Source of the DNA: Chitinophaga pinensis
GTDB lineage: Bacteria; Bacteroidota; Bacteroidia; NS11-12g; UBA9320
Assembly (NCBI GenBank): GCA_945907065.1
Contig: CAMDSC010000004.1
Span: forward strand, 1-64,000
DNA: 64,000 nt
Direction: 5' to 3'
Positions 3,053-61,421 of this stretch are shown in pieces (positions within the stretch are counted from its first letter, which is position 1; each line of letters begins with the position of its first letter). Under the pieces are notes generated by a model. That model was not told the origin of the DNA. It was given only the letters and a program-made list of their open reading frames with translations, and did not search any database. A program made the translations under genes and the position numbers.

Positions 3053-4012
3053 CTAAGTACTGCAAGGGTCTTCTATTTCTAAGCAATAAAGTTTCCATGT
3101 TCCTTCTGATTTAATAAAATAGAAACCTAAATTTCCGTCGGTACTAAAGATAAAAGCAACAACCGAAGGCTCCGTTCTTTTTGCTTCCTCTATTTGACTA
3201 TTAATATTATGGTCTTCATCTGGGCTAAATTCTTTAAGTGCAGATAAGGATTTTGATACTTTGTTAAAATCTTGTTCGATACCCCCATAACATCCTTTTT
3301 TGTTATAAAAATCTGTCATATCGCAATTGATTTCAGGTTTTTCACCTTCAATTAAAGTAAATTTTGATTTTTTAAAAACGTCAAATCCTGCTCGCCAAGG
3401 AATTTCTTCTGTTAGTTCATTAACATCTTTAATTTCAGATACCGAAGTAATAAAACCTGGTTTTGAAAGATAATAGAATGATTTTTTATCGGAGAGATAC
3501 GCTTCAAGTCCAGCTTCGCCATTCTTTTTAATCGTATAAATAAACTCATTGGCAAAAGCGGCAAAGTTTTTCGAACTTTCTATTGCATTTGTTTTTGGTG
3601 CATTTTCTTCTTGAATTTGTTTTTCAAATAATTCCAATGAATCTCCACCAATAACATTACGAATTAAAATTTGATGAATTTCAACTTTCTTCACCAATTC
3701 TTCATACTGTTTTTTAAATTTACCATTATCCTTCGAAAAGCTTTCATTTTCAAGTCTCAGTTTTTCAATATTGGAGTTAAGGTCAATTGTATAATTTTTT
3801 AAATCTTTTAATTCATTGCTCAATCGTTTTATTTCTGATGATGTAATTGAATCTCTAATTTTAAGATTGTTTATTTCAAACTGCTGAAAATCTATGGTCA
3901 TACCTAAAGTATCAATTCGCGATTGGAGATCTTTTTTCTTTGGACCAAACTGCCCGATGGCAATTAAAGGCATAAAAAAAACAATGAGTAAAATTGATTT
4001 AGCGTGTTGCAT
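3053..4012 (-). CDS. secreted coiled-coil protein of unknown function
   Basis: 319 residues. The N-terminus (MQHAKSILLIVFFMPLIAIGQ) is a signal peptide ending in the A/G-Q pattern typical of Bacteroidota exports. Residues 30-110 are heptad-like and rich in Leu, Ile, Lys and Glu, predicting a coiled coil. The C-terminal half is a separate, mostly soluble region with cysteines in the contexts INCDMTDF, GCYGG, LYCLE and EDPC, which may form disulfides in the periplasm. I do not recognise the family. It is transcribed divergently from glyS, with its own -7 element 16 bases upstream, and is separated from rpsT by about 130 AT-rich bases. Confidence 0.8.
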   Translation of the reverse strand: MQHAKSILLIVFFMPLIAIGQFGPKKKDLQSRIDTLGMTIDFQQFEINNLKIRDSITSSEIKRLSNELKDLKNYTIDLNSNIEKLRLENESFSKDNGKFKKQYEELVKKVEIHQILIRNVIGGDSLELFEKQIQEENAPKTNAIESSKNFAAFANEFIYTIKKNGEAGLEAYLSDKKSFYYLSKPGFITSVSEIKDVNELTEEIPWRAGFDVFKKSKFTLIEGEKPEINCDMTDFYNKKGCYGGIEQDFNKVSKSLSALKEFSPDEDHNINSQIEEAKRTEPSVVAFIFSTDGNLGFYFIKSEGTWKLYCLEIEDPCST

Positions 4013-4027
4013 TTCGATTTAAAGTTC

Positions 4028-4035
4028 CAAAATTA
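4028..4035 (-). promoter_or_regulatory. -7 element of the coiled-coil protein gene
   Basis: Minus-strand TAATTTTG, a perfect TAnnTTTG, 16 bases upstream of the ATG at 4012. It is divergent from the glyS promoter, so the 73-bp intergenic region carries two promoters. Confidence 0.55.
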
Positions 4036-4065
4036 CAAAATAAGACATATATAGGGTTAAAATAT

Positions 4066-4073
4066 TAGTTTTG
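4066..4073 (+). promoter_or_regulatory. -7 element of glyS
   Basis: TAGTTTTG matches TAnnTTTG, 13 bases before ATG 4086, predicting a leader of only a few bases. Confidence 0.55.
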
Positions 4074-4085
4074 CCCTAACAAAAA

Positions 4086-5621
4086 ATGAGTGCAGAAGAA
4101 CAATTCAAGAAGATAATTTCACATTGTAAAGAGTATGGTTTCATATTCCCTTCAAGTGAGATATACGAAGGCTTAGCGGCCGTTTACGACTATGGTCAAA
4201 ACGGTGTAGAACTTAAAAATAATCTTCGCCAATATTGGTGGAAAAGTATGGTTCAAATGCATCAAAACATTGTTGGATTGGATTCAGCAATATTTATGCA
4301 GCCCAAGGTTTGGAAGGCAAGTGGTCATGTAGATGGATTTAGTGACCCGATGATTGACAACAAGGACAGTAAAAAACGCTACAGAGCGGATGTTTTGCTG
4401 GAAGAACACCAGGATAAAATACAGGATAAAATAAATAAGGAAATTGAGAAGGCTGCTAAACGGTTTGGAGAATCATTTGATGCAAAACTATATGCTGAAA
4501 CAAATCCACGGATTGTGGAGTATAATGCTTCCATTTCTTTGATTGATGATACACTTAAAACAGGCTTAGAAACTGGAAATCTTGATTTAATAAAAGCCTT
4601 AATCGAGCAACTGGAAATCGTTTGCCCGGTGAGTGGCACCAAGAATTGGACAGATGTTCGCCAGTTTAATTTGATGTACAGCACCCAGATGACAGCTACT
4701 GACGGGGAATCAGAATTGTATTTGCGACCAGAAACTGCACAAGGAATTTTTGTAAACTTTTTAAACGTTCAAAAATCAGGAAGGATGAAAATTCCGTTTG
4801 GGATTGCCCAAACCGGAAAAGCATTCAGAAATGAAATTGTAGCCCGTCAGTTCATTATGAGGATGAAGGAATTCGAACAAATGGAAATGCAGTTTTTTGT
4901 TAGACCTGGAACCGAAATGGATTGGTATACCTACTGGAAAGAGACCCGATTAAAATGGCACAAGGCTTTGGGAACAGATACGAATAACCTTAAATATCAC
5001 GACCATTTAAAATTGGCACATTACGCCAATGCCGCGGTTGATATTGAATACAAATTTCCGTTTGGATTTAAAGAAGTAGAAGGAATCCATAGCCGTACCG
5101 ATTTCGATTTAGGTCGCCATCAGGAGTATTCAGGTAAAAAACTTCAATATTTTGACCCTGAAACTAACCAAAATTATGTGCCTTATGTCGTGGAGACTTC
5201 CATCGGTTTGGATCGTTTGTTTCTGGTTCAATTGTGTGAAAATTTGGTAGATGAAGTTTTGGAAAATGGCGAAACCCGCACTGTATTTAAAATAAATCCT
5301 GTATTAGCTCCATACAAAGTAGCTATTTTACCATTGGTTAAAAAAGACGGTTTGCCGGAAATAGCAGAGAAAATTTACAATGACCTAAAATTTGACTTCA
5401 ACTGTTTTTACGAAGAAAAGGATACCATTGGAAAACGCTACCGCCGCCAGGATGCCATTGGAACACCGTTTTGTGTAACCATTGATTACGACAGTGTTCA
5501 GGATAATTCGGTAACGCTTCGTTATCGTGACAGTATGGAACAAAAACGCATAAAAATAGACGAGCTTCATGGCTTGATAAGCAATGAGGTGAGCTGGAAA
5601 AAACTATTAAATAATTTATAA
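4086..5621 (+). CDS. glyS: glycine--tRNA ligase, dimeric type
   Basis: 511 residues, a class II aminoacyl-tRNA synthetase of the alpha2 (eukaryote/archaea/Gram-positive) type that charges tRNA-Gly. N-terminal features include [18 protein letters not shown]; motif 2 is the segment [20 protein letters not shown], and motif 3 lies in [16 protein letters not shown]. The C-terminal 110 residues (from about [14 protein letters not shown]) form the anticodon-binding domain. Length is normal for the family. A 1-base gap separates its stop from the start of the methylmalonyl-CoA mutase gene, so the two are probably co-transcribed, an unexpected pairing of translation and propionate metabolism. Confidence 0.95.
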
Positions 5622-9452: not shown

Positions 9453-11072
9453 ATGAAGTATAAAAACACACTCCTTTTATTTTTAACCATCTTTCAAACC
9501 AACTTATATTCTCAATCCACTTGGTCAGATAGTTTAATACTAACTCCCGAACGAAGTCAGTTTCAAAAAACATCCACCTATAAAGATGTAATTAATTTTT
9601 TGGAAGCAATAAAAAAACAAAGTGATAACGTGTTTATTTTTAGTATGGACAAAAGCCTGGAAGGAAAAGATATTCCTGTTGCCGTGCTGGCAAACCCAGC
9701 TATAAAAACGTTGGAAGAAGCAAAAGCTTCGGGCAAAGCTGTTATTTATATTCAGGGAAATATTCATGCCGGCGAAGTAGAAGGCAAAGAAGCGGTAATG
9801 ATGCTGATGCGGGATATTTTGTTAGGAGATAAAAAGCATTTATTAGATAATATAATTATCCTGTTTGTTCCAATATATAATACCGATGCTAATGATAAAA
9901 TGGCTAAGGGATTAAGGCCTTCTCAGGAAGACAGTCCACCAGAAACCGGAGAACGGGAAAGCAGCCAGGGCTATGACCTTAACCGCGACGGAATGAAAAT
10001 GGAAGCATTGGAAACCCGAGGGCTTTTTGAAAACGTAATTGTTCCTTGGGACCCACAGATTTTTGTTGATTTGCATACCACCAATGGCACTTGGCATGCC
10101 TATCCTTTAACCTGGGCACCAAGCTATCACTCGGCAGGTGAATATGCCCCTTTTGAATATTCCTACTTTAAAATGTTGCCTTCCATTACTAGGGCAGTTC
10201 ATGAAAAACATGATTTAAAATTTGGCGTATATGGCGATTACTATTTGGAAGAAGGTTGGCCTCCAAAAAACTTTTACAGTTATAATCATCATCCTCGGTA
10301 TTTGGTAAACCAGTTTGGGTTTCGCAATCGGATGGCTATTTTGAGTGAATCATTTGCCCACAATCGGTTTTATGAACGCATCAACAGTACTTATATTTTT
10401 ATGTCAGAAATTCTAGAATTTGCCAATAAAAATTCGAAGGAAATTATAGACATCAATAAAAAAGCAGAAGAAGCCGCCATTCAAAATGTTATAAAAAATG
10501 CTGGTAAATTAAAAAAAGGCGTTCAGTTTAAAATGGTACCTCTGAACAAACTTAATGATTTTATAACCTATGATTATTTAACGGTTTCTGATACCAATGG
10601 TAAAACTAAACAGTATCGCACCGGAAAAATTGTTGAGTATGACGACATTGATTATTACGCAAAATTTGAAGCCACCAAAGAAAGCACTTTGCCACGTGGC
10701 TATATTATTCCTACTGAGTTTACCGAGGTTGTTAAAAATTTGAGAATGCATGGAATCAAAGTAGAATCATTGCAAAAAAACCAATCCTTTTCTGGAGAAA
10801 ACTTTGTGATTGATAGTTTGGTAAACGACAAGGAGGCTTTTCAAAAACACAAAACCGCCACTTTGTATGGTGATTTTAAATCCGAAACTAAAAAATATAA
10901 AAAGGGAGATTATTTAGTGGATATGGCTCAGCCACTCAGCAATCTTATTTTTTATATCCTCGAACCACAATCCGACGATGGCTTGGTTCATTGGAATTTT
11001 TTTGATAGTTATATTAAAAAGAAAACGGCTGAAGGAAAAAAGGTAGATTTTCCTGTTTTTAAATATTTTTAA
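9453..11072 (+). CDS. secreted M14-family zinc carboxypeptidase
   Basis: 539 residues with a signal peptide (residues 1-20, ending LYSQ). The M14 zinc site is visible: His105 and Glu108 in GNIHAGEVEGK, His208 in FVDLHTTNGTW, with DLNRDG (Asn177-Arg178) and Glu299 in ILSESFAHNR as the likely substrate-binding and catalytic residues. It should hydrolyse C-terminal or modified residues from peptides in the periplasm or outside the cell. Residues 350-539 form an additional C-terminal region. No T9SS sorting tail is seen, so periplasmic location is more likely. The upstream 220 bases contain the nested hairpins; tex follows after 50 bases. Confidence 0.88.
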   Translation: MKYKNTLLLFLTIFQTNLYSQSTWSDSLILTPERSQFQKTSTYKDVINFLEAIKKQSDNVFIFSMDKSLEGKDIPVAVLANPAIKTLEEAKASGKAVIYIQGNIHAGEVEGKEAVMMLMRDILLGDKKHLLDNIIILFVPIYNTDANDKMAKGLRPSQEDSPPETGERESSQGYDLNRDGMKMEALETRGLFENVIVPWDPQIFVDLHTTNGTWHAYPLTWAPSYHSAGEYAPFEYSYFKMLPSITRAVHEKHDLKFGVYGDYYLEEGWPPKNFYSYNHHPRYLVNQFGFRNRMAILSESFAHNRFYERINSTYIFMSEILEFANKNSKEIIDINKKAEEAAIQNVIKNAGKLKKGVQFKMVPLNKLNDFITYDYLTVSDTNGKTKQYRTGKIVEYDDIDYYAKFEATKESTLPRGYIIPTEFTEVVKNLRMHGIKVESLQKNQSFSGENFVIDSLVNDKEAFQKHKTATLYGDFKSETKKYKKGDYLVDMAQPLSNLIFYILEPQSDDGLVHWNFFDSYIKKKTAEGKKVDFPVFKYF

Positions 11073-16500: not shown

Positions 16501-17203
16501 CGATGGAGTTGCTGTAAAACCATCAAATGTATCTCAGGGTTCCATCACTTCACAAAAGTGGTTTTTTGGCGACGGAACTTCAGATACTTCTAAATCCCCT
16601 TCTCATATTTACGCTAATGCTGGAATTTACAATATCAAACTAATGTTAACGTCTGGACTAGGCTGTATTGATTCAACCTCAAAAACAATCTTAATTTACA
16701 CAAAACCACTTATTAAAATAAGTAAAGACATATTATTAAGTAAAGGCCATAGCACACAGTTGTTAGCTAGCGGAGGTACAGATTACCTTTGGTCTCCTGC
16801 AGGTACACTCGACAATCCTTCGGCCGCTAACCCAACTGCTACCCCTCAAGAAAATACACGTTACTCAGTGAAGGTTATGAATGCTTTCGGTTGTTTTGAC
16901 ACAGCATCCGTTAGTGTATCACTGATTGCAGATTTTGCTATTGAACCACAGAATTTAATTTCACCAAATGGAAATGGACAAAACGATGTATGGAAAATTA
17001 AGGGTATTGAATTTTATCCTGAAGCAACTGTAATGATTTTTGATCAATGGGGAAGAATAATATTGGAACAAGCAGATTACAAGAACACATGGGATGGAAC
17101 TATGAAAGGAAAACCTTTACCAGACGGAACATATTTTTATGTTATTACCCTTCCCGGATCAGAAAGACAATATAAAGGAACGATTAATATTTTAAGAAAT
17201 TAA
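13553..17203 (+). CDS. giant PKD-repeat surface protein with type B T9SS sorting domain
   Basis: 1216 residues. A signal peptide (about residues 20-44, ending LVEAQS) is followed by a Ser/Thr/Gly-rich N-terminal domain (45-225), a linker, then nine PKD repeats, each with a W-x-F/L-G-D-G or WDFDNG core (for example SWDLGDGTSS, IWRFGDGKTS, KWFFGDGTSD) and paired cysteines, and a tenth immunoglobulin-like unit (YLWSPAGTLDNPSAANP). The last 85 residues (from about ISPNGNGQNDVWKI) are the gliding-motility-associated C-terminal domain (CHU_C, TIGR04131), the type B T9SS export signal. It is exported by Sec, then T9SS, to the cell surface, likely an adhesin or matrix protein. ATG 13574 (residue 8) is an equally plausible start. 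The PorP/SprF-type gene follows after 46 bases, a common partner arrangement. Confidence 0.93.
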   Translation: MHNLKQMITIKTFIQKVRFSIHKSVKNSLIVILLFNFSYLVEAQSFYNGATGASYNASPLNDGTLNKVQWIYGPSLFKSSGTSGTASPKGTITKIYFRLGTTVNSSASYSNFTISLGQNQGTSTTWSSTTFTTGLTTVFSKTSFTMSGATATSWYGIALNTPYYYDPSQSLVFELKASAGTGNQVAQTIVGGNQRNYGGYAGSTGTIATGLVDFGFDIVTSSQNDISAIGITNGLSNTCGITSDPVFVQLKNTGIIDIAAGQNIPVTTVVSGGGNVTLNKFFNKILKVGVTDTIHMGYLNSASFTGNINLKSSISFIPADSVRSNDTNFTTKNFLGKAKVTVGFNFTTVCDSAKFTNTTKDNCTNSITGYKWDFDNGKSSTSISPTQFYGSAGTYNVKLVVFYSSGLKDSITKQVIVYPKPQANFYANNQCLGIAVDFSNFSYGTNTYKWSFGDATTSTLTTPPSKTYSAAGTYAVKLVANTANSCRDSITKNVIIYSKPVAGFTVSNACAGLNANFNNTTTGAITHSWDLGDGTSSGFFNPFKIYNTAGTYGIILIVTSSQGCTDKATGSVVINPLPVSGFNAPNNCKGIPTQFTNTSTGSVNYSWAFGDGNTSLSPAPSNKYSNPGTFNVTLVATSDKGCTNTLVKPVTIYAIPKVNFSAKDVCIGVQTDFTNLSTLPNGGGDYIWRFGDGKTSAVAGPSYKYAASGVYDVRLVAISSFGCKDSTLNSVSIFDKPQPSFTAVDVCDGKEVQFINTSNGSVSQEWDFGDGAKDITYSPTHTYAGPDIYKVILTVTSPNNCKDVFEGNVTVKTNPELVFFAENHCLGTSASFANSSVGAASFSWTFGDGDSTASTQASHPYKTAGNYTVKLRGVSSKGCSVQQSKSITVFPKPVTAFSAATVCFGKSTTFTNTSSGATSYIWNFGDGSGSSNLSNPLPYQYFNAGSYKVTLSAISSNNCKEDLSKTISVAALPIPIFIVQDACDGVAVKPSNVSQGSITSQKWFFGDGTSDTSKSPSHIYANAGIYNIKLMLTSGLGCIDSTSKTILIYTKPLIKISKDILLSKGHSTQLLASGGTDYLWSPAGTLDNPSAANPTATPQENTRYSVKVMNAFGCFDTASVSVSLIADFAIEPQNLISPNGNGQNDVWKIKGIEFYPEATVMIFDQWGRIILEQADYKNTWDGTMKGKPLPDGTYFYVITLPGSERQYKGTINILRN

Positions 17204-17249
17204 TCATTGACAAATTAAGATAACGTATCATCAAACAATAGTATTAAAC

Positions 17250-19241
17250 ATGAAGAAAAATTTTATTTCAACCTTAGTGGTTATATTAGTTGGCATTGGA
17301 ACTGCTGCCGGCCAACAAATTCCTATGTTCAATTCGTATACTTTAAATAAGTTTTTAATTAACCCCTCATATGCAGGTGCTAGTGGAAAAACAAATATTT
17401 TTGGAATCAACAGAATTCAATATTCTGGCTTTGACGGGGCTCCAGTTACCTATATGTTTACTGCAGATGCAGGCTTTAAGGATAAAAAGTTTGGATTAGG
17501 AGGTGCCGTTTTTTCAGACAGGAACAACCTGATTGCTCAAAATGGGTTTCAATTAGCATATGCCTATACAGTAAAATTAAATGAAAAATGGAATTTAGGT
17601 ATGGGGCTAAATGCAGGAGCGGTGCAATGGACTTTAAATTTTGACCAGTTAAAAGTAGACGACATAACTGAAGATGTGCTATCAAATTACAAATCAAACT
17701 CAACTACCTTTCGTTCAGATTTCGGTTTCAGAATAAGTTCAGATAAATTAGATTTTGGGTTATCGCTTCCGCAATTAGTTGCCAGTAAGGTGAAGTACAG
17801 TGACTATTTAAAAAATGGCAATGGTACCTATGCTTCCATTCCGCATTATGTAGCAAATTTGAGTTACCTTCTTAGCCTTGGAAATGAAATTAATCTTAAA
17901 CCAATGGTTGTAGTGAGAGGTGCTAAAGATATTCAACCTCAAATTGACGTAATTGGATTATTGGATTGGAAAAGTAAAGCTTATGCAACTTTAGGATACC
18001 GAACTAATTATGCTTTATCAATTGGGGGTGGTGTAAGACTAACAAAAGGCGTTACATTTGGTTACACTTACGACCGCCCAGTAAATAACATTAGCAATTA
18101 TTCAGGAGGAAGTCATGAAATTATTGTTGGAATCACTCTTGGATCAAGAGGTAGTTCGGACGAAAAACCTGAGCCTGCAAATGGATTGAGCAAAGAAGCT
18201 GAAGCAAAACTTAAAGCAGATATACAAAAACAAGTTCAAGAAAAACTCTCTGCTGATTATGAAGCAAAGTTAAAACAGGAATTAGATTTAAGAGTTAGCA
18301 AAGCAGTAGATGAAAAAGTTGCAAAAGCCTTGGCGGACAGACCAACCACTACAGTCACCCCAGGAGATTCTAAAACTACTCCTTCAACCAATGCAACCTT
18401 GAGTAAGGAAGAACTTGAAAAGATTAAAAAGGATATTGAGGAGAAAATCCGTAAGCAAATGGATGATAGCTATGCTAAACTTATTGATGAAAAGATAAAA
18501 AAAGCAATGGAAAGTAAACCTGTTGTTGTTGAAAAAGAAGTACAGCCGAATAAAGAAGAAATCGAGCGGATTAGAAAAGAAAGCGAAGAAAAGATTAGAA
18601 AAGAGGTGGAGGAAAAACTAAGAAAAGAACTTACGGATAAAATCAATCAAGCGGTGCAGGAGAGAATGGACAAAGAGGCACAAAAACAAAAGGAAGAAGC
18701 CCAAAAGGCCCCTAAGGAATACAAAATGACCGCTAAAGATAAGTCTATGTTGGATTCCTTAAAAATGATAAACCAGGAAAATCAAAGGAAAATTGCATAC
18801 CTTGAAATTCAGCTAAAAAACTTTCCGGAAAGTGACCGTATTGAAAACGAACAATTGAGGGAAATTACCAGAATTGTTCACCAAAACGATATTGAAATGA
18901 AAGAATTTAAAGCCAAGAATAAAATTATTTTGGAAGGGGCAAAAGATGCACCTCCTTCGAAAAAAACAGAAGAGACAGAGGCAATAGATGAACATGCTAA
19001 ATTTGTACTTATTTTGGCTTGTTTCAAAACCCTCAAAGAAGCTCAGTTTTATCAGAAACTGGCCACACAAACGTTTGAATTTCCAAATACCAAAGTTTTG
19101 AAACCAAGTCAACCTGAGGGTTGGTATTTTGTTTATCAAAAATCATTTGATAAGAAAAAGATGGCTTGGGATGCTCATACAAAGATTTCTGAATCAAAAT
19201 TAAATACTCCAAATTATCCTTGGATTTATGTTTCGGAATAA
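17250..19241 (+). CDS. PorP/SprF-family outer membrane protein with coiled-coil and SPOR-like tail
   Basis: 663 residues, about twice the family's usual 300-350. Residues 1-21 are a signal peptide; residues 22-310 match the PorP/SprF family (QQIPMFNSYTLNKFLINPSYAG, repeated short strands, GVTFGYTYDRPVNNIS), an outer-membrane barrel associated with T9SS and gliding. Residues 310-560 are strongly charged and helical, with Lys/Glu heptads, a Thr/Pro linker (PTTTVTPGDSKTTPS) and repeated EEIxRI-type segments, predicting long coiled coils. The last 85 residues (VLILACFKTLKEAQFYQKLA through WIYVSE) look like a SPOR-type fold, often used for peptidoglycan binding. It may anchor or present the adjacent PKD protein while bridging to the cell wall; that is inference. 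A terminator follows. Confidence 0.88.
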   Translation: MKKNFISTLVVILVGIGTAAGQQIPMFNSYTLNKFLINPSYAGASGKTNIFGINRIQYSGFDGAPVTYMFTADAGFKDKKFGLGGAVFSDRNNLIAQNGFQLAYAYTVKLNEKWNLGMGLNAGAVQWTLNFDQLKVDDITEDVLSNYKSNSTTFRSDFGFRISSDKLDFGLSLPQLVASKVKYSDYLKNGNGTYASIPHYVANLSYLLSLGNEINLKPMVVVRGAKDIQPQIDVIGLLDWKSKAYATLGYRTNYALSIGGGVRLTKGVTFGYTYDRPVNNISNYSGGSHEIIVGITLGSRGSSDEKPEPANGLSKEAEAKLKADIQKQVQEKLSADYEAKLKQELDLRVSKAVDEKVAKALADRPTTTVTPGDSKTTPSTNATLSKEELEKIKKDIEEKIRKQMDDSYAKLIDEKIKKAMESKPVVVEKEVQPNKEEIERIRKESEEKIRKEVEEKLRKELTDKINQAVQERMDKEAQKQKEEAQKAPKEYKMTAKDKSMLDSLKMINQENQRKIAYLEIQLKNFPESDRIENEQLREITRIVHQNDIEMKEFKAKNKIILEGAKDAPPSKKTEETEAIDEHAKFVLILACFKTLKEAQFYQKLATQTFEFPNTKVLKPSQPEGWYFVYQKSFDKKKMAWDAHTKISESKLNTPNYPWIYVSE

Positions 19242-57543: not shown

Positions 57544-58536
57544 TTATTCTTTAAACAGTTTCTTTTCCAATGTTACTTCAGGGCTTGTAAATTTTGCTAT
57601 ATAAAATCCGTTTGATAGTGAACGGATATCAATTTCAGTAGTGTCATTTTTTAAATCTTTTTGCAAAACACAAATCCCAATGGTGTTATAAATTTTCAAG
57701 GTTATATCCTTGCTTTTTGAAATACTAATAGAAAGTTTATCGGTGGCTGGATTGGGAAACATAATTATTTCAAAAGTTGGTTTTACTTCATTTAAGGTTG
57801 CCGGAGAATCCCGGATTAATCGAATGGAACTGCCATTTACTTTGGGCCAATGGGCCCTGAAAATATCTTCATGATAAACACACAAATGTTTGAGCCAAGA
57901 GGTGCTATCGCCCGGTGAAGTGGAGGTCCAAAACTGGGCATTGCCTGTAGGTTTTTGAAACGATGTATAAGATCCTCCGGCATTAAAATAGATGCGATAT
58001 CCGGCACCGAGTGCAGTAAATCCGCTTGAATTTGTTCCCTTATTTTTAGAAAGCCCCGGAGTTGGGCAACACGCCAAAGTCCAATAGGTGGTAGTATCTG
58101 CTTTTTTCAACGCATTGGCTTCTTTGGTTCCTCGGTAATTTTCGAGGTTTGCAGTGGAAGCAAGCATACCCACATACATTTCCAATGTTTTCCATTCGGC
58201 ATCGCTAGGTACATGCCAGCCTTTGGGTGCTATGCCTCGCAAATCGTTGGCCGCATGCCAGTTATAAAGTTTTCCGTAAATAATTCCGTTAGCCGGTTTG
58301 TTTTCATTGTTGCACCAAGCCCCTTTTGTTTGAATAACCCATGCCAGCGAATCTTTCACTTCCGGTATCGGGTCGCCATTAGTATAATGGCTCACTTTTA
58401 AGTTTTCCTTCATCCACACTTGCGTTCCTATAGTGACTGTATTATACACATTCCCTTCAATATCGGTAACGGTTTGAGCATAATTTGTGGTCTCAAAAAA
58501 GGTAAGTGTGGCGATTAAAAGAACTATTCTTTTCAT
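57544..58536 (-). CDS. FISUMP-domain protein with type A T9SS tail
   Basis: 330 residues: signal peptide (1-20), a Fibrobacter succinogenes major paralogous (FISUMP) domain (residues 22-235; DIEGNVYNTVTIGTQVWMKE, KLYNWHAAND, GIAPKGWHVPSDAEWKTLE, FWTSTSPGDS, SIRLIRD) and an 80-residue sorting tail (FEIIMFPNPATDKLSISI to VTLEKKLFKE). FISUMP proteins are abundant secreted proteins of unknown function, often in large families. It should be carried by T9SS to the surface. Its gene converges on the barrel-protein gene; the promoter region before it leads into the palindrome unit at 58664. Confidence 0.9.
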   Translation of the reverse strand: MKRIVLLIATLTFFETTNYAQTVTDIEGNVYNTVTIGTQVWMKENLKVSHYTNGDPIPEVKDSLAWVIQTKGAWCNNENKPANGIIYGKLYNWHAANDLRGIAPKGWHVPSDAEWKTLEMYVGMLASTANLENYRGTKEANALKKADTTTYWTLACCPTPGLSKNKGTNSSGFTALGAGYRIYFNAGGSYTSFQKPTGNAQFWTSTSPGDSTSWLKHLCVYHEDIFRAHWPKVNGSSIRLIRDSPATLNEVKPTFEIIMFPNPATDKLSISISKSKDITLKIYNTIGICVLQKDLKNDTTEIDIRSLSNGFYIAKFTSPEVTLEKKLFKE

Positions 58537-58558: not shown

Positions 58559-58663
58559 ATTCGAATTGTTGTTTCAGTTTCTTAATTTTAAACCAATTCA
58601 ATAAAGATATTTTTTATTGGTTTTTTTTTGCCTTAGTTTTCAGTGAAGCACAAGCACCGCTGC

Positions 58664-58796
58664 GCTAACGTTTTGCATATTTGCGATGTGGCGGACTTAG
58701 TAGCACTAACTTTCATTTTACAACCAATGTTTATTAGAAGCAGAATGTTTCTTTAACCACTAAACCCGCCATATTCGCAAATATGCTGTTAAGGGC
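58664..58796. repeat. large imperfect palindrome next to the LamG gene (attC-like)
   Basis: Two arms of about 38-45 bases (left about 58664-58708, right about 58751-58796) share CATATTTGCGA, TGGCGG and TTTAGT-type blocks in inverted order, with bulges where one arm has extra bases (TTTT in the left arm), and enclose about 42 unrelated bases. Both ends carry TAAC/GTTA core-like sequences. Unpaired bulges plus terminal GTTA-type cores resemble integron attC sites, but the cores deviate from GTTRRRY. The right end is also the inverted repeat that abuts the LamG stop codon. Confidence 0.7.
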
Positions 58797-58800
58797 TGGC

Positions 58801-60087
58801 TTATTCCTTAATCACTTTAAATGTCTGCTTCAAATTCTCTCCAACACTGAATAAATAAATACCACCTGATAAATTACCCAATTCAATAACTGTATTTTCC
58901 GCAATTATCTTTCCTGATAAAACCACTTTCCCTGTGTTGTCATAAACAGTGTAAATAGAACCTAACAATTTCACGTCTGCTTTCACATTGATTTGACTTT
59001 TTGCTGGATTAGGATAAACTGAAAATAAATTGTCTTGTGAGTTTTCGTTTATACCCACATTATTATTAACTTTTAAAACAGCAACATTTGATGTGTCCGA
59101 GCAAGAACCAGAAGAAATTATACAACGGAACGGTTGATTGTTATTGCTCAATGTTGTATTTGCAATTGTAAGTGTATCATTTTTAGTGCCACTATACTGA
59201 CTAACACTATTCAAATTTTGAAAACCAAAACCAAGGTCTGTTTGCCATTGATAGGTGGCCATTGAATCTGATGATGCAGTTATAAATTGGGCGTTATTAG
59301 AAATATTAACTGATTGATTTATTGGTTGTGTTGTTACTGAAGCTGAACAGCCAATTTTATACAAAGCAGAAATTTCAGGCTGTGTTAATGCACGGTTCCA
59401 AATGCCTATATCATCAAGTTTTCCATTCCAAAAATAACCGAATGGTGGTATTTCTGCATGAGGAAAATATCCAATTGATAAATCATAATTAAAGTTAGTT
59501 AATGTCCCTGGAAGACTTTGACTAATTACTATGAGATTATTCCTGTATAGTTTTGCCGAATCTCCATCGTATATGAATACTAAATTATTCCATTGATTTA
59601 TATTTAAAGTGCTTGTTGTCGGGAATGAATAGTAAATATTATTTACCCTAATTTCTAAATCCAACTCCCCACTTCCACCAATCCTAATAGCCCAACTTCT
59701 ATGTTGGCTATTTGGATATAAATCATTAGATTTATCTATTATATATTGTTCACTTGGTCCAAATACAGTTGGGTTTACCCAAATACTTACAGAAATACGA
59801 CTAGGATTTAAATTTAAAGAATTAGGAATTACAATATTATTATTTTGCCCATTAAAATTATAAGCACTATTTAAATTCGCAAACCTGTCGCTTGTCAATG
59901 TCGCTCCATTAATCGTACCATTATTCCCTCTCCCACTACTATCATTTGCATTACCCGTAAACGGCCACCAGCCAATAAGTGATTTTGTTGGAACATAAGA
60001 TGGAACTGTTTGTGCGATTGTACCTGTTGCAAGTCCTAAGATTGCAACTACTGTCATTAGTAAATTTTTCTTTTTCATTTTTTTCAT
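58801..60087 (-). CDS. LamG-domain secreted protein with type A T9SS tail
   Basis: 428 residues. Signal peptide (about 1-25, ending GTIAQ), a LamG/concanavalin-like domain (about 35-235: GWWPFTGNANDSSGRGNNG, INGATLTSDRFANLNSAY, ISVSIWVNP, KLDDIGIWNRALTQPEISALY), an Ig-like segment (about 240-340, with a C-C pair), and an 80-residue sorting tail (from NLFSVYPNPAKSQINVKADV). It should be a surface or extracellular carbohydrate-binding protein; the ligand is unknown. ATG 60078 (residue 4) is an alternative start. No clear -7 element lies upstream. The gene lies between inverted repeats and large palindromes described separately, which suggests it can move as a unit. Confidence 0.9.
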   Translation of the reverse strand: MKKMKKKNLLMTVVAILGLATGTIAQTVPSYVPTKSLIGWWPFTGNANDSSGRGNNGTINGATLTSDRFANLNSAYNFNGQNNNIVIPNSLNLNPSRISVSIWVNPTVFGPSEQYIIDKSNDLYPNSQHRSWAIRIGGSGELDLEIRVNNIYYSFPTTSTLNINQWNNLVFIYDGDSAKLYRNNLIVISQSLPGTLTNFNYDLSIGYFPHAEIPPFGYFWNGKLDDIGIWNRALTQPEISALYKIGCSASVTTQPINQSVNISNNAQFITASSDSMATYQWQTDLGFGFQNLNSVSQYSGTKNDTLTIANTTLSNNNQPFRCIISSGSCSDTSNVAVLKVNNNVGINENSQDNLFSVYPNPAKSQINVKADVKLLGSIYTVYDNTGKVVLSGKIIAENTVIELGNLSGGIYLFSVGENLKQTFKVIKE

Positions 60088-60128
60088 TTTGTAATTGTTT
60101 TACCATTGGGCAATTTTGATTTAAGCTT

Positions 60129-60137
60129 GCCCTTAAC
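60129..60137. repeat. upstream member of the inverted-repeat pair around the LamG gene
   Basis: GCCCTTAAC is the exact complement of GTTAAGGGC at 58788-58796. Extending both sides gives 15-base repeats with 13 matches (60123-60137 and 58788-58802), one at each end of the LamG gene, in inverted orientation. Confidence 0.7.
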
Positions 60138-60155
60138 TAATAGATAAGCGAGACA

Positions 60156-60217
60156 AAACTAACCAAAACATTACCATATCTAGCACTGAAAGGATGAATA
60201 TGCGAATGTTTTAGTTT
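60156..60217. repeat. 62-base imperfect hairpin upstream of the LamG gene
   Basis: AAACTA...AAAACATT and its inverted counterpart AATGTTTT...TAGTTT pair across a central region, with an ACC bulge in one arm (60161-60163) and a further mismatch near CATAT. The size and bulged stem resemble a short attC-type site; it lies between the LamG and DUF1624-type genes. Confidence 0.6.
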
Positions 60218-60233
60218 CTATTATCTCTCATTT

Positions 60234-61421
60234 CTAAACATAACTCAACCACCAATGCCCTTTGCTGCTTTTGTAGTTATTATACCAGCGGCAAGGGAAG
60301 TATAATGTTGCAACTACCGTAGCCCATATAATATAAACTGCCCAAAGCGGCACGCCAAATCCTTTAGGAAATCCGCCAAAAATAGCAGTGGGGTCAAGGT
60401 TGGATAAGCTATAACCGGAAGCTAAGAAAACGGCAAGCGCCACCGCATGGATGAGGTAAATATGCAGGATGTAATAAAAAAACGGAACTCGCCCGAATAC
60501 GGTAATAGCATCTAAAAATTTGTTTTTCCAAGTTTCGGAATAGGCCAAAAACAAAAACGCCGGGCCGATGGTCATCAAGGCATACAAAAGTGATGGAGGA
60601 TATTTGGTAGTATCTACAAATGATAAAATCGAGAATATACCTGTTGACTGAGTTTGCCAAAAATGAGCATCCCCATAAAAATTGCAGGAACGCAATAGTA
60701 TAAATAGCCCAATACTTCCCAAGCCCAATTGGATAAGGGTTTTACGGCGTTTTGCAACTGTAACATCAGCGTTGTAAAGCTGCCCAAACAGGTAGCCCAA
60801 AATCATTATACCAATCCAGGGCATGAGGGGATATCCTATAAATAAATTGTGTGAACTATCGAATTGAAACACATGCGGAACATGTAAAACCGACCATAAA
60901 AAACCTCCTAAATTTTCGGTAACTTGTCCATCAAACCTATCTAAAAGGTTATGCCCAAACACCAATAGAATTCCTAAACCCAACAGAATATTTTTAGGTA
61001 AATGAACCAAGCCCGCCATAAATAGCATGCCGCAACCCAAAGCCCATATTACAAAAAGCCCTGCAAATGAAAAGTTAAAATTCCCTACCCATCCATAGTA
61101 AATAATCGTTACCTCCAAAATAATCAACCATAAACCACGTGTTATTAAAAATCCCGAAACTGCCTTTAATGACCGCCTTTTGCTTACAAAAAAAATGGAA
61201 GTGCCAGCCAGAAATACAAAGATAGGGGCACAAAAATGAGTTATCCAGCGGGTGAGGAACAAACCTGTGGTAGTGGTTTCAAAATCCAATGGATCGTTGC
61301 CATTTATGGAATCGAAATGCAAAAAATCACGGCAATGGTCTAAAGCCATTATAACCATTACTAATCCGCGTAGCAGGTCGATAGATTGGATTCTGGGTTT
61401 GGTATGAGCTAGTGTATTCAT
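60234..61421 (-). CDS. DUF1624/heparan-alpha-glucosaminide acetyltransferase-like membrane protein
   Basis: 395 residues with about ten hydrophobic helices. The N-terminal motif RIQSIDLLRGLVMVIMALDHCRDF contains the conserved D-L-L-R-G and the catalytic His-like residue of the family, followed by FAPIF-type HFCAPIFVFLAGTSIFF. Members move acetyl groups from cytoplasmic acetyl-CoA across the membrane to sugars, as in human HGSNAT; which substrate is used here cannot be told. It has its own promoter and is monocistronic between palindromic elements. Confidence 0.88.
   Translation of the reverse strand: MNTLAHTKPRIQSIDLLRGLVMVIMALDHCRDFLHFDSINGNDPLDFETTTTGLFLTRWITHFCAPIFVFLAGTSIFFVSKRRSLKAVSGFLITRGLWLIILEVTIIYYGWVGNFNFSFAGLFVIWALGCGMLFMAGLVHLPKNILLGLGILLVFGHNLLDRFDGQVTENLGGFLWSVLHVPHVFQFDSSHNLFIGYPLMPWIGIMILGYLFGQLYNADVTVAKRRKTLIQLGLGSIGLFILLRSCNFYGDAHFWQTQSTGIFSILSFVDTTKYPPSLLYALMTIGPAFLFLAYSETWKNKFLDAITVFGRVPFFYYILHIYLIHAVALAVFLASGYSLSNLDPTAIFGGFPKGFGVPLWAVYIIWATVVATLYFPCRWYNNYKSSKGHWWLSYV

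Follow-up and report, generated by a model that had tools for sequence, protein, structure and literature searches.

A probable integron-type gene cassette in a Bacteroidia chromosome and its probable link to XerA-like integrases that lack the IntI insert

A gene for a secreted LamG protein in the stretch of Bacteroidia DNA analysed here (64 kb, hereafter the window) is framed by inverted repeats, with a large palindrome beyond its stop codon and a hairpin upstream. An earlier note on this DNA had read the arrangement as an integron-like cassette, and the question raised by the locus is whether gene and palindrome form one mobile unit, and by which enzyme such a unit would be moved. Judged by its sequence, the minus-strand segment 58669-60136 is an integron-type gene cassette, in which an attC hairpin comes after the LamG/T9SS gene; recurrence of the palindrome, an R-box rule and homologues that start at the same G↓TT (the arrow marks the crossover) uphold this reading. 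The segment very probably represents a mobile cassette of a Bacteroidia-specific integron system, which stands alone at a chromosomal site apart from the arrays and would be moved by a XerA-like recombinase.

Feature coordinates in the window refer to the minus strand. The cassette spans 1468 bp (58669..60136); it starts with the TT of the upstream G↓TT, and its last base is the G that precedes the TT at the downstream crossover. Its gene (58801..60087) encodes a secreted protein of 428 aa, to which Pfam assigns a LamG domain (Laminin_G_3, 4.6e-24) and a C-terminal sorting domain for the T9SS (Por_Secre_tail, 1.6e-9), and the last 83 residues are 75% identical to the tail of the M43-peptidase cassette protein in the array on contig C29 of the same genome. 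The cassette-start R box GTTAAGGGC (60129..60137) has its crossover G↓TT at 60137/60136, which was placed by R-box complementarity and by the starts of homologues. The gene is followed by the attC site (58661..58796), which was delimited with a held-out covariance model and is ordered R''-L''-71-nt variable loop-L'-R'. Its R'' box GCCCTTAAC (58788..58796) complements the R box at the cassette start in every base. The fold and the covariance model together gave the L'' arm GCATATTTGCGAATATGGCGG (58766..58786), one base longer than the L' arm CCGCCACATCGCAAATATGC (58675..58694), and the R' box GTTAGCGCA (58661..58669) contains the predicted crossover G↓TT at 58669/58668, positioned from the model alignment.

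The bulged palindrome at 58664-58796 that had been pointed out earlier is real, since none of 200 dinucleotide shuffles reached its stability, whether the minus strand was folded (z -4.06) or the plus strand (z -4.76), which corresponds to the attC 'bottom' strand. The inverted 15-mers said to frame the gene were likewise recovered by a repeat search, at 58788-58803 and 60122-60137 with 88% complementarity. Of 385 random xxxxxxAAC 9-mers, 31 (8%) had a perfect inverted partner in the 6 kb upstream of them; therefore, the perfectly matching 9 bases GTTAAGGGC/GCCCTTAAC say little when taken by themselves, and they were dropped as a stand-alone argument.

The covariance-model search that had been proposed as a check was carried out with an attC model made for this analysis from 34 sites of relatives only, with the window genome held out. 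The window attC scored 110.5 bits (E=1e-22), the top attC-like match in the 64-kb window; no second convincing attC was found there, the next match (18.5 bits) being the same palindrome on the other strand. An Rfam scan of the window returned one tRNA and nothing else. In the attC sites of relatives, all 18 stem pairs showed compensated changes, and in the window genome's own attC set 91.5% of cells were paired compared with 60% in shuffles, every slid register collapsing. The family consensus is CAGCC(T/C)ATAAC / GTTATRGGCAA, the variable loop measures about 70 nt, and the sites are imperfect palindromes with R'', L'', L' and R' boxes in which structure rather than sequence is conserved. The window R boxes CCTTAAC, GTTAAGG and GTTAGCG each depart from the RYYYAAC / GTTRRRY consensus; the cores described earlier as imperfect are normal for the attC family found here, which is itself not strictly canonical.

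Within the arrays, a closure rule links the two ends of a cassette: the bases after GTT at its start complement the bases before AAC at its end. The pairs GTTATGGGC/GCCCATAAC, GTTATAGGT/ACCTATAAC and GTTATGGGA/TCCCATAAC in the units on contig C11 follow it, as does the pair GTTAAGGGC/GCCCTTAAC in the window. The rule held over 5 bases in 20 of 27 neighbouring site pairs of relatives (shuffled mean 2.7, maximum 8), and it held in 40 of 52 neighbouring pairs from named genomes with the integrase (shuffled mean 1.8, maximum 7). We take the rule to be a trace of integron recombination, because the first bases of a cassette and its R'' box derive from one attC of the circular form. The attC sites in arrays of relatives all have the same orientation, and the longest ORF lay in attC orientation in 44 of 49 cassettes.

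The palindrome recurs at gene boundaries and in same-orientation arrays, both elsewhere in this genome and among relatives. A DNA search of the 2.7-Mb assembly yielded three further copies with 85-86% identity on contigs C11 and C32. On C11 the order is attC, gene, attC, two genes and a divergent attC (CCTATAACACCGTGTAAGC...CGCCTACACGCAAAACGTTA), followed by chromosomal DNA. About 18 attC-like sites were found in the genome, several of them in arrays: five on C29, two each on C54 and C62, and single ones on C11, C32, C53, C17, C18, C14, C27, C1 and in the window. The window cassette is solitary on its 139-kb contig, with neither an attI nor an attC proven upstream. The cassettes of C54 (L155), C62 (L065) and C29 (L153) encode a C5 DNA methylase with a GIY-YIG protein, Fic and CYTH proteins, an ion channel, a DNA/RNA endonuclease and several T9SS-tailed enzymes.

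The boundaries of the window cassette were also visible in comparison with 295 related genomes, in which several matches to the 1468 bp started exactly at base 1 and many ended at base 1468. Homologues in G045, G623, G617, G670 and G650 begin at the same G↓TT behind unrelated upstream DNA, and the alignment of these five genomes changes from little likeness before GTT to near-identity from GTT on. The homologous start GTTAAGGGCAAGCTT lies behind an attI in G045 (...AGCGGGTATAGGTAAG↓TT) and G623 (...AGCGTCTATAAGTAAG↓TT), behind an attC in G617 and behind other DNA in G670 and G650. G045 and G670 share the end GAATAAGCCAGCCCTTAACAGC and have different attC bodies. No identical full-length LamG cassette was found in the 295 related genomes, only homologues and mosaic parts.

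A set of 56 cassettes, including that of the window, was delimited by the R-box rule. One of these, a 3346-bp cassette for a GDSL-type esterase with a T9SS tail, is present both in the window's own genome G000 (C29; L153, 705-4050) and in G023, a member of another genus (C12; L071, 835-4180). The two copies align from base 1 to base 3346 with 92.8% identity, end at G↓TT and have unrelated flanks; thus, cassette calling predicted a real transfer unit. As read from these sequences, exact cassettes have been transferred between genera.

The earlier note had found no integrase in the window, which is correct, and had suggested looking for a tyrosine recombinase elsewhere; contig C19 carries a XerA-like gene with an attI. 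Its product is the genome's best integrase match, nearest to NF040815 (XerA-like) and under the cut-off of TIGR02249. Canonical IntI (TIGR02249, cut-off 265 bits) was found in none of 21 array-bearing or related genomes, the window genome included, and profile positions of about 180-237 were unmatched in the integrases of these genomes. The array-linked integrases are XerA-like recombinases of 360-420 aa. Among those measured, the KGxKDR-LRHS spacing is 60-61 residues (65 in one case) compared with 102 in IntI1 and four IntIs of the phylum; therefore, an IntI-specific insert of roughly 40 residues is missing. The catalytic residues R, K, H, R, H and Y are all invariant. In a quick tree with long branches, the IntIs formed their own clade (support 100) and most of the new integrases another (90), while the deeper order was unsupported.

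The integrase gene lies directly upstream of same-orientation attC arrays in L115, L120, L121, L123, L128, L131 and L132; other contigs end a few hundred bases past it, as repeats would cause. Across 31 loci, 83 of 86 attC matches lay downstream of the integrase and on its strand, in named genomes chosen by integrase similarity alone and with more sequence searched upstream than downstream. Since the window genome is in 63 contigs, linkage of its arrays to the C19 integrase is not directly visible. The array-linked XerA-like gene and an attI are found together in several families, among cultured members as well as uncultured ones. In these attI sites the integrase stop is followed by a hairpin and then by a core like GGGTATAAACAA directly before GTT, and C19 includes such an attI together with a first cassette. 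A core resembling TATAAACAA before GTT (at most 3 mismatches) was present about 70-180 bp past the integrase stop in 23 of 38 cases compared with 18 of 190 random segments. Contig C27 (L159, about 4020-4872) retains the last codons of a deleted integrase, the same attI, a single cassette and, where the contig stops, an attC, and is thus a platform that lost its integrase.

From this linkage and conservation, we infer that the XerA-like integrase catalyses cassette recombination. The cassette would be excised as a circle and then reinserted by the XerA-like tyrosine recombinase, here the one encoded on C19. The recombinase would recognise a folded attC strand and exchange strands at G↓TT, and the usual partner would be an attI or another attC.

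Two other accounts of the repeats and their mover were weighed. The palindromes are multi-copy and lie just past stop codons, which would also be expected of interspersed REP/MITE-like repeats or transcription terminators that follow genes by chance. This origin can hardly be right, because neighbouring sites obey the closure rule, the matches show the 83/86 strand-and-side bias toward integrases, and the stem covaries around a variable loop of about 70 nt. Moreover, gene and palindrome travel as one unit with exact ends, whereas REP/BIME or MITE palindromes, although alike as repeated extragenic palindromes, are not gene-bound as a unit and have neither an R-box rule nor an integrase linkage. 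It is also improbable, if less so, that the cassettes are real and another enzyme moves them, either a canonical IntI acting in trans or XerC/XerD, the adjacent XerA-like gene being incidental. In favour of such a mover, the XerA-like enzymes have no IntI insert, and 105 of 395 genomes of the phylum have a canonical IntI gene over the cut-off. However, among the genomes listed over that cut-off only G114 belongs to the window's class, neither the window genome nor the 20 other related genomes searched has a canonical IntI, and the XerA-like gene and attI stand directly upstream of the arrays in several families.

How the LamG cassette came to stand alone is a separate matter. Its neighbours are a Fib_succ_major/T9SS gene (57544-58536) and a gene for an HGSNAT-like acyltransferase (60234-61421), and both lie within a variable gap. 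Strains without the cassette had been suggested as a check. The same-genus genome G006 conserves both flanks, to 58629 and 60217, and is without the LamG cassette; however, a TetR regulator and an ABC exporter lie between the flanks and only a fragment of the acyltransferase is left, so that G006 does not give the exact empty site. The contigs of G004 stop inside the acyltransferase gene or are without the Fib_succ gene. The upstream hairpin reported at 60156-60217 exists as an imperfect hairpin, but it is weak (z -2.06, with 10 of 200 shuffles as stable) and is not an attC, as it has no match to the attC model; an attI-like target and a terminator are both only possible identities for it.

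Insertion of the cassette may have used a secondary site, or else an attI that had decayed and had no integrase. In the latter case the locus would be a decayed integron platform with LamG as its last cassette, the hairpin and TATCTATTAG↓TT forming a degenerate attI whose integrase was lost. An AGTT stands about 20 nt after the hairpin, a layout as in the attI sites of relatives, homology to G006 ends exactly at the hairpin, and C27 of the same genome offers a parallel in its attI behind an integrase remnant. The attI-core score at the hairpin is within the top 2% of window GTTR sites, yet at 0.2 bits it is below 24 of the 25 training attI cores, which scored 4.9-13.4 bits (the remaining one scored -3.2). 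With this score, a hairpin z of only -2.06 and an acyltransferase gene rather than an integrase gene immediately upstream, the decayed platform is possible but doubtful as an alternative to secondary-site insertion.

Returning to the reading as a cassette moved by a XerA-like recombinase, the system resembles known integrons (IntI/attI/attC, comprising sedentary chromosomal integrons, CALINs and the single-attC elements of IntegronFinder) in its structured attC, which has R and L boxes and an L'' arm exceeding L' in length, its same-orientation cassettes of ORF plus attC, its G↓TT junctions and R/R'' complementarity, its attI beside a tyrosine recombinase gene, and its exact cassette exchange between genomes. 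In contrast to these known integrons, the Bacteroidia integrase has no additional domain of the IntI type and does not fall into the IntI clade. Its array follows downstream and shares its orientation, a hairpin forms part of the attI, and the R boxes, of 8-9 bases, do not fit RYYYAAC/GTTRRRY. Among curated families, the best NCBIfam match is NF040815 ('site-specific tyrosine recombinase/integron integrase'), which shares the catalytic core; the members found here are longer at the N-terminus by about 80-140 residues and are linked with attI/attC arrays.

The additional domain is necessary for IntI activity according to Messier and Roy (2001), as cited in PMC2426708, and the insert is treated as defining or essential (PMC2426708; PMC9668308; PMC8138268), although it is not fully conserved in an integron-like subgroup (PMC8138268). 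Its absence from the XerA-like enzymes counts against the proposed integrase role. The open-access papers searched contained no account of array-linked integrases without the insert. Integrons are considered rare in Bacteroidetes, and the IntegronFinder 2.0 survey listed one complete integron there, in Salinibacter (PMC9024848). Here, attC-like sites (E<=1e-6) were present in 109 of 149 sampled genomes of the class, about three quarters; the attC model, which is Bacteroidia-specific, found none in 7 genomes outside Bacteroidota.

We consider it likely that these sites belong to a second, class-wide kind of Bacteroidia integron that is largely unrecognised. Its integrases would be XerA-like and lack the additional domain of IntI, its attI sites would bear a hairpin, and its attC sets would reach at least 75 sites in a genome; its cassettes, many of them for T9SS-secreted proteins, would move between genera and onto plasmids. 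The combination of attC-like sites and an insert-less integrase makes testable whether folded-attC recombination needs the insert, by what route Xer-like enzymes gave rise to integron integrases, and by what means secreted enzymes and other accessory genes are shuffled in Bacteroidia.

Cultured Flavobacterium enshiense DK69 (L223) has at least 75 attC-like sites, a set of superintegron size, and Arundinibacter roseus has 20, F. aciduliphilum 12 and Algoriphagus ornithinivorans 7. Insert-less relatives of the integrase were also seen in Spirochaetota and Undinarchaeota MAGs (L230, L236, L221). Seven attC-like sites lie on the Chryseobacterium sp. SNU WT5 plasmid NZ_CP041688.1 (L162), where the integrase gene (9974-11017) is followed by 5 attC sites on the same strand. 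A group II intron reverse transcriptase (16738-18054) is located within this plasmid array.
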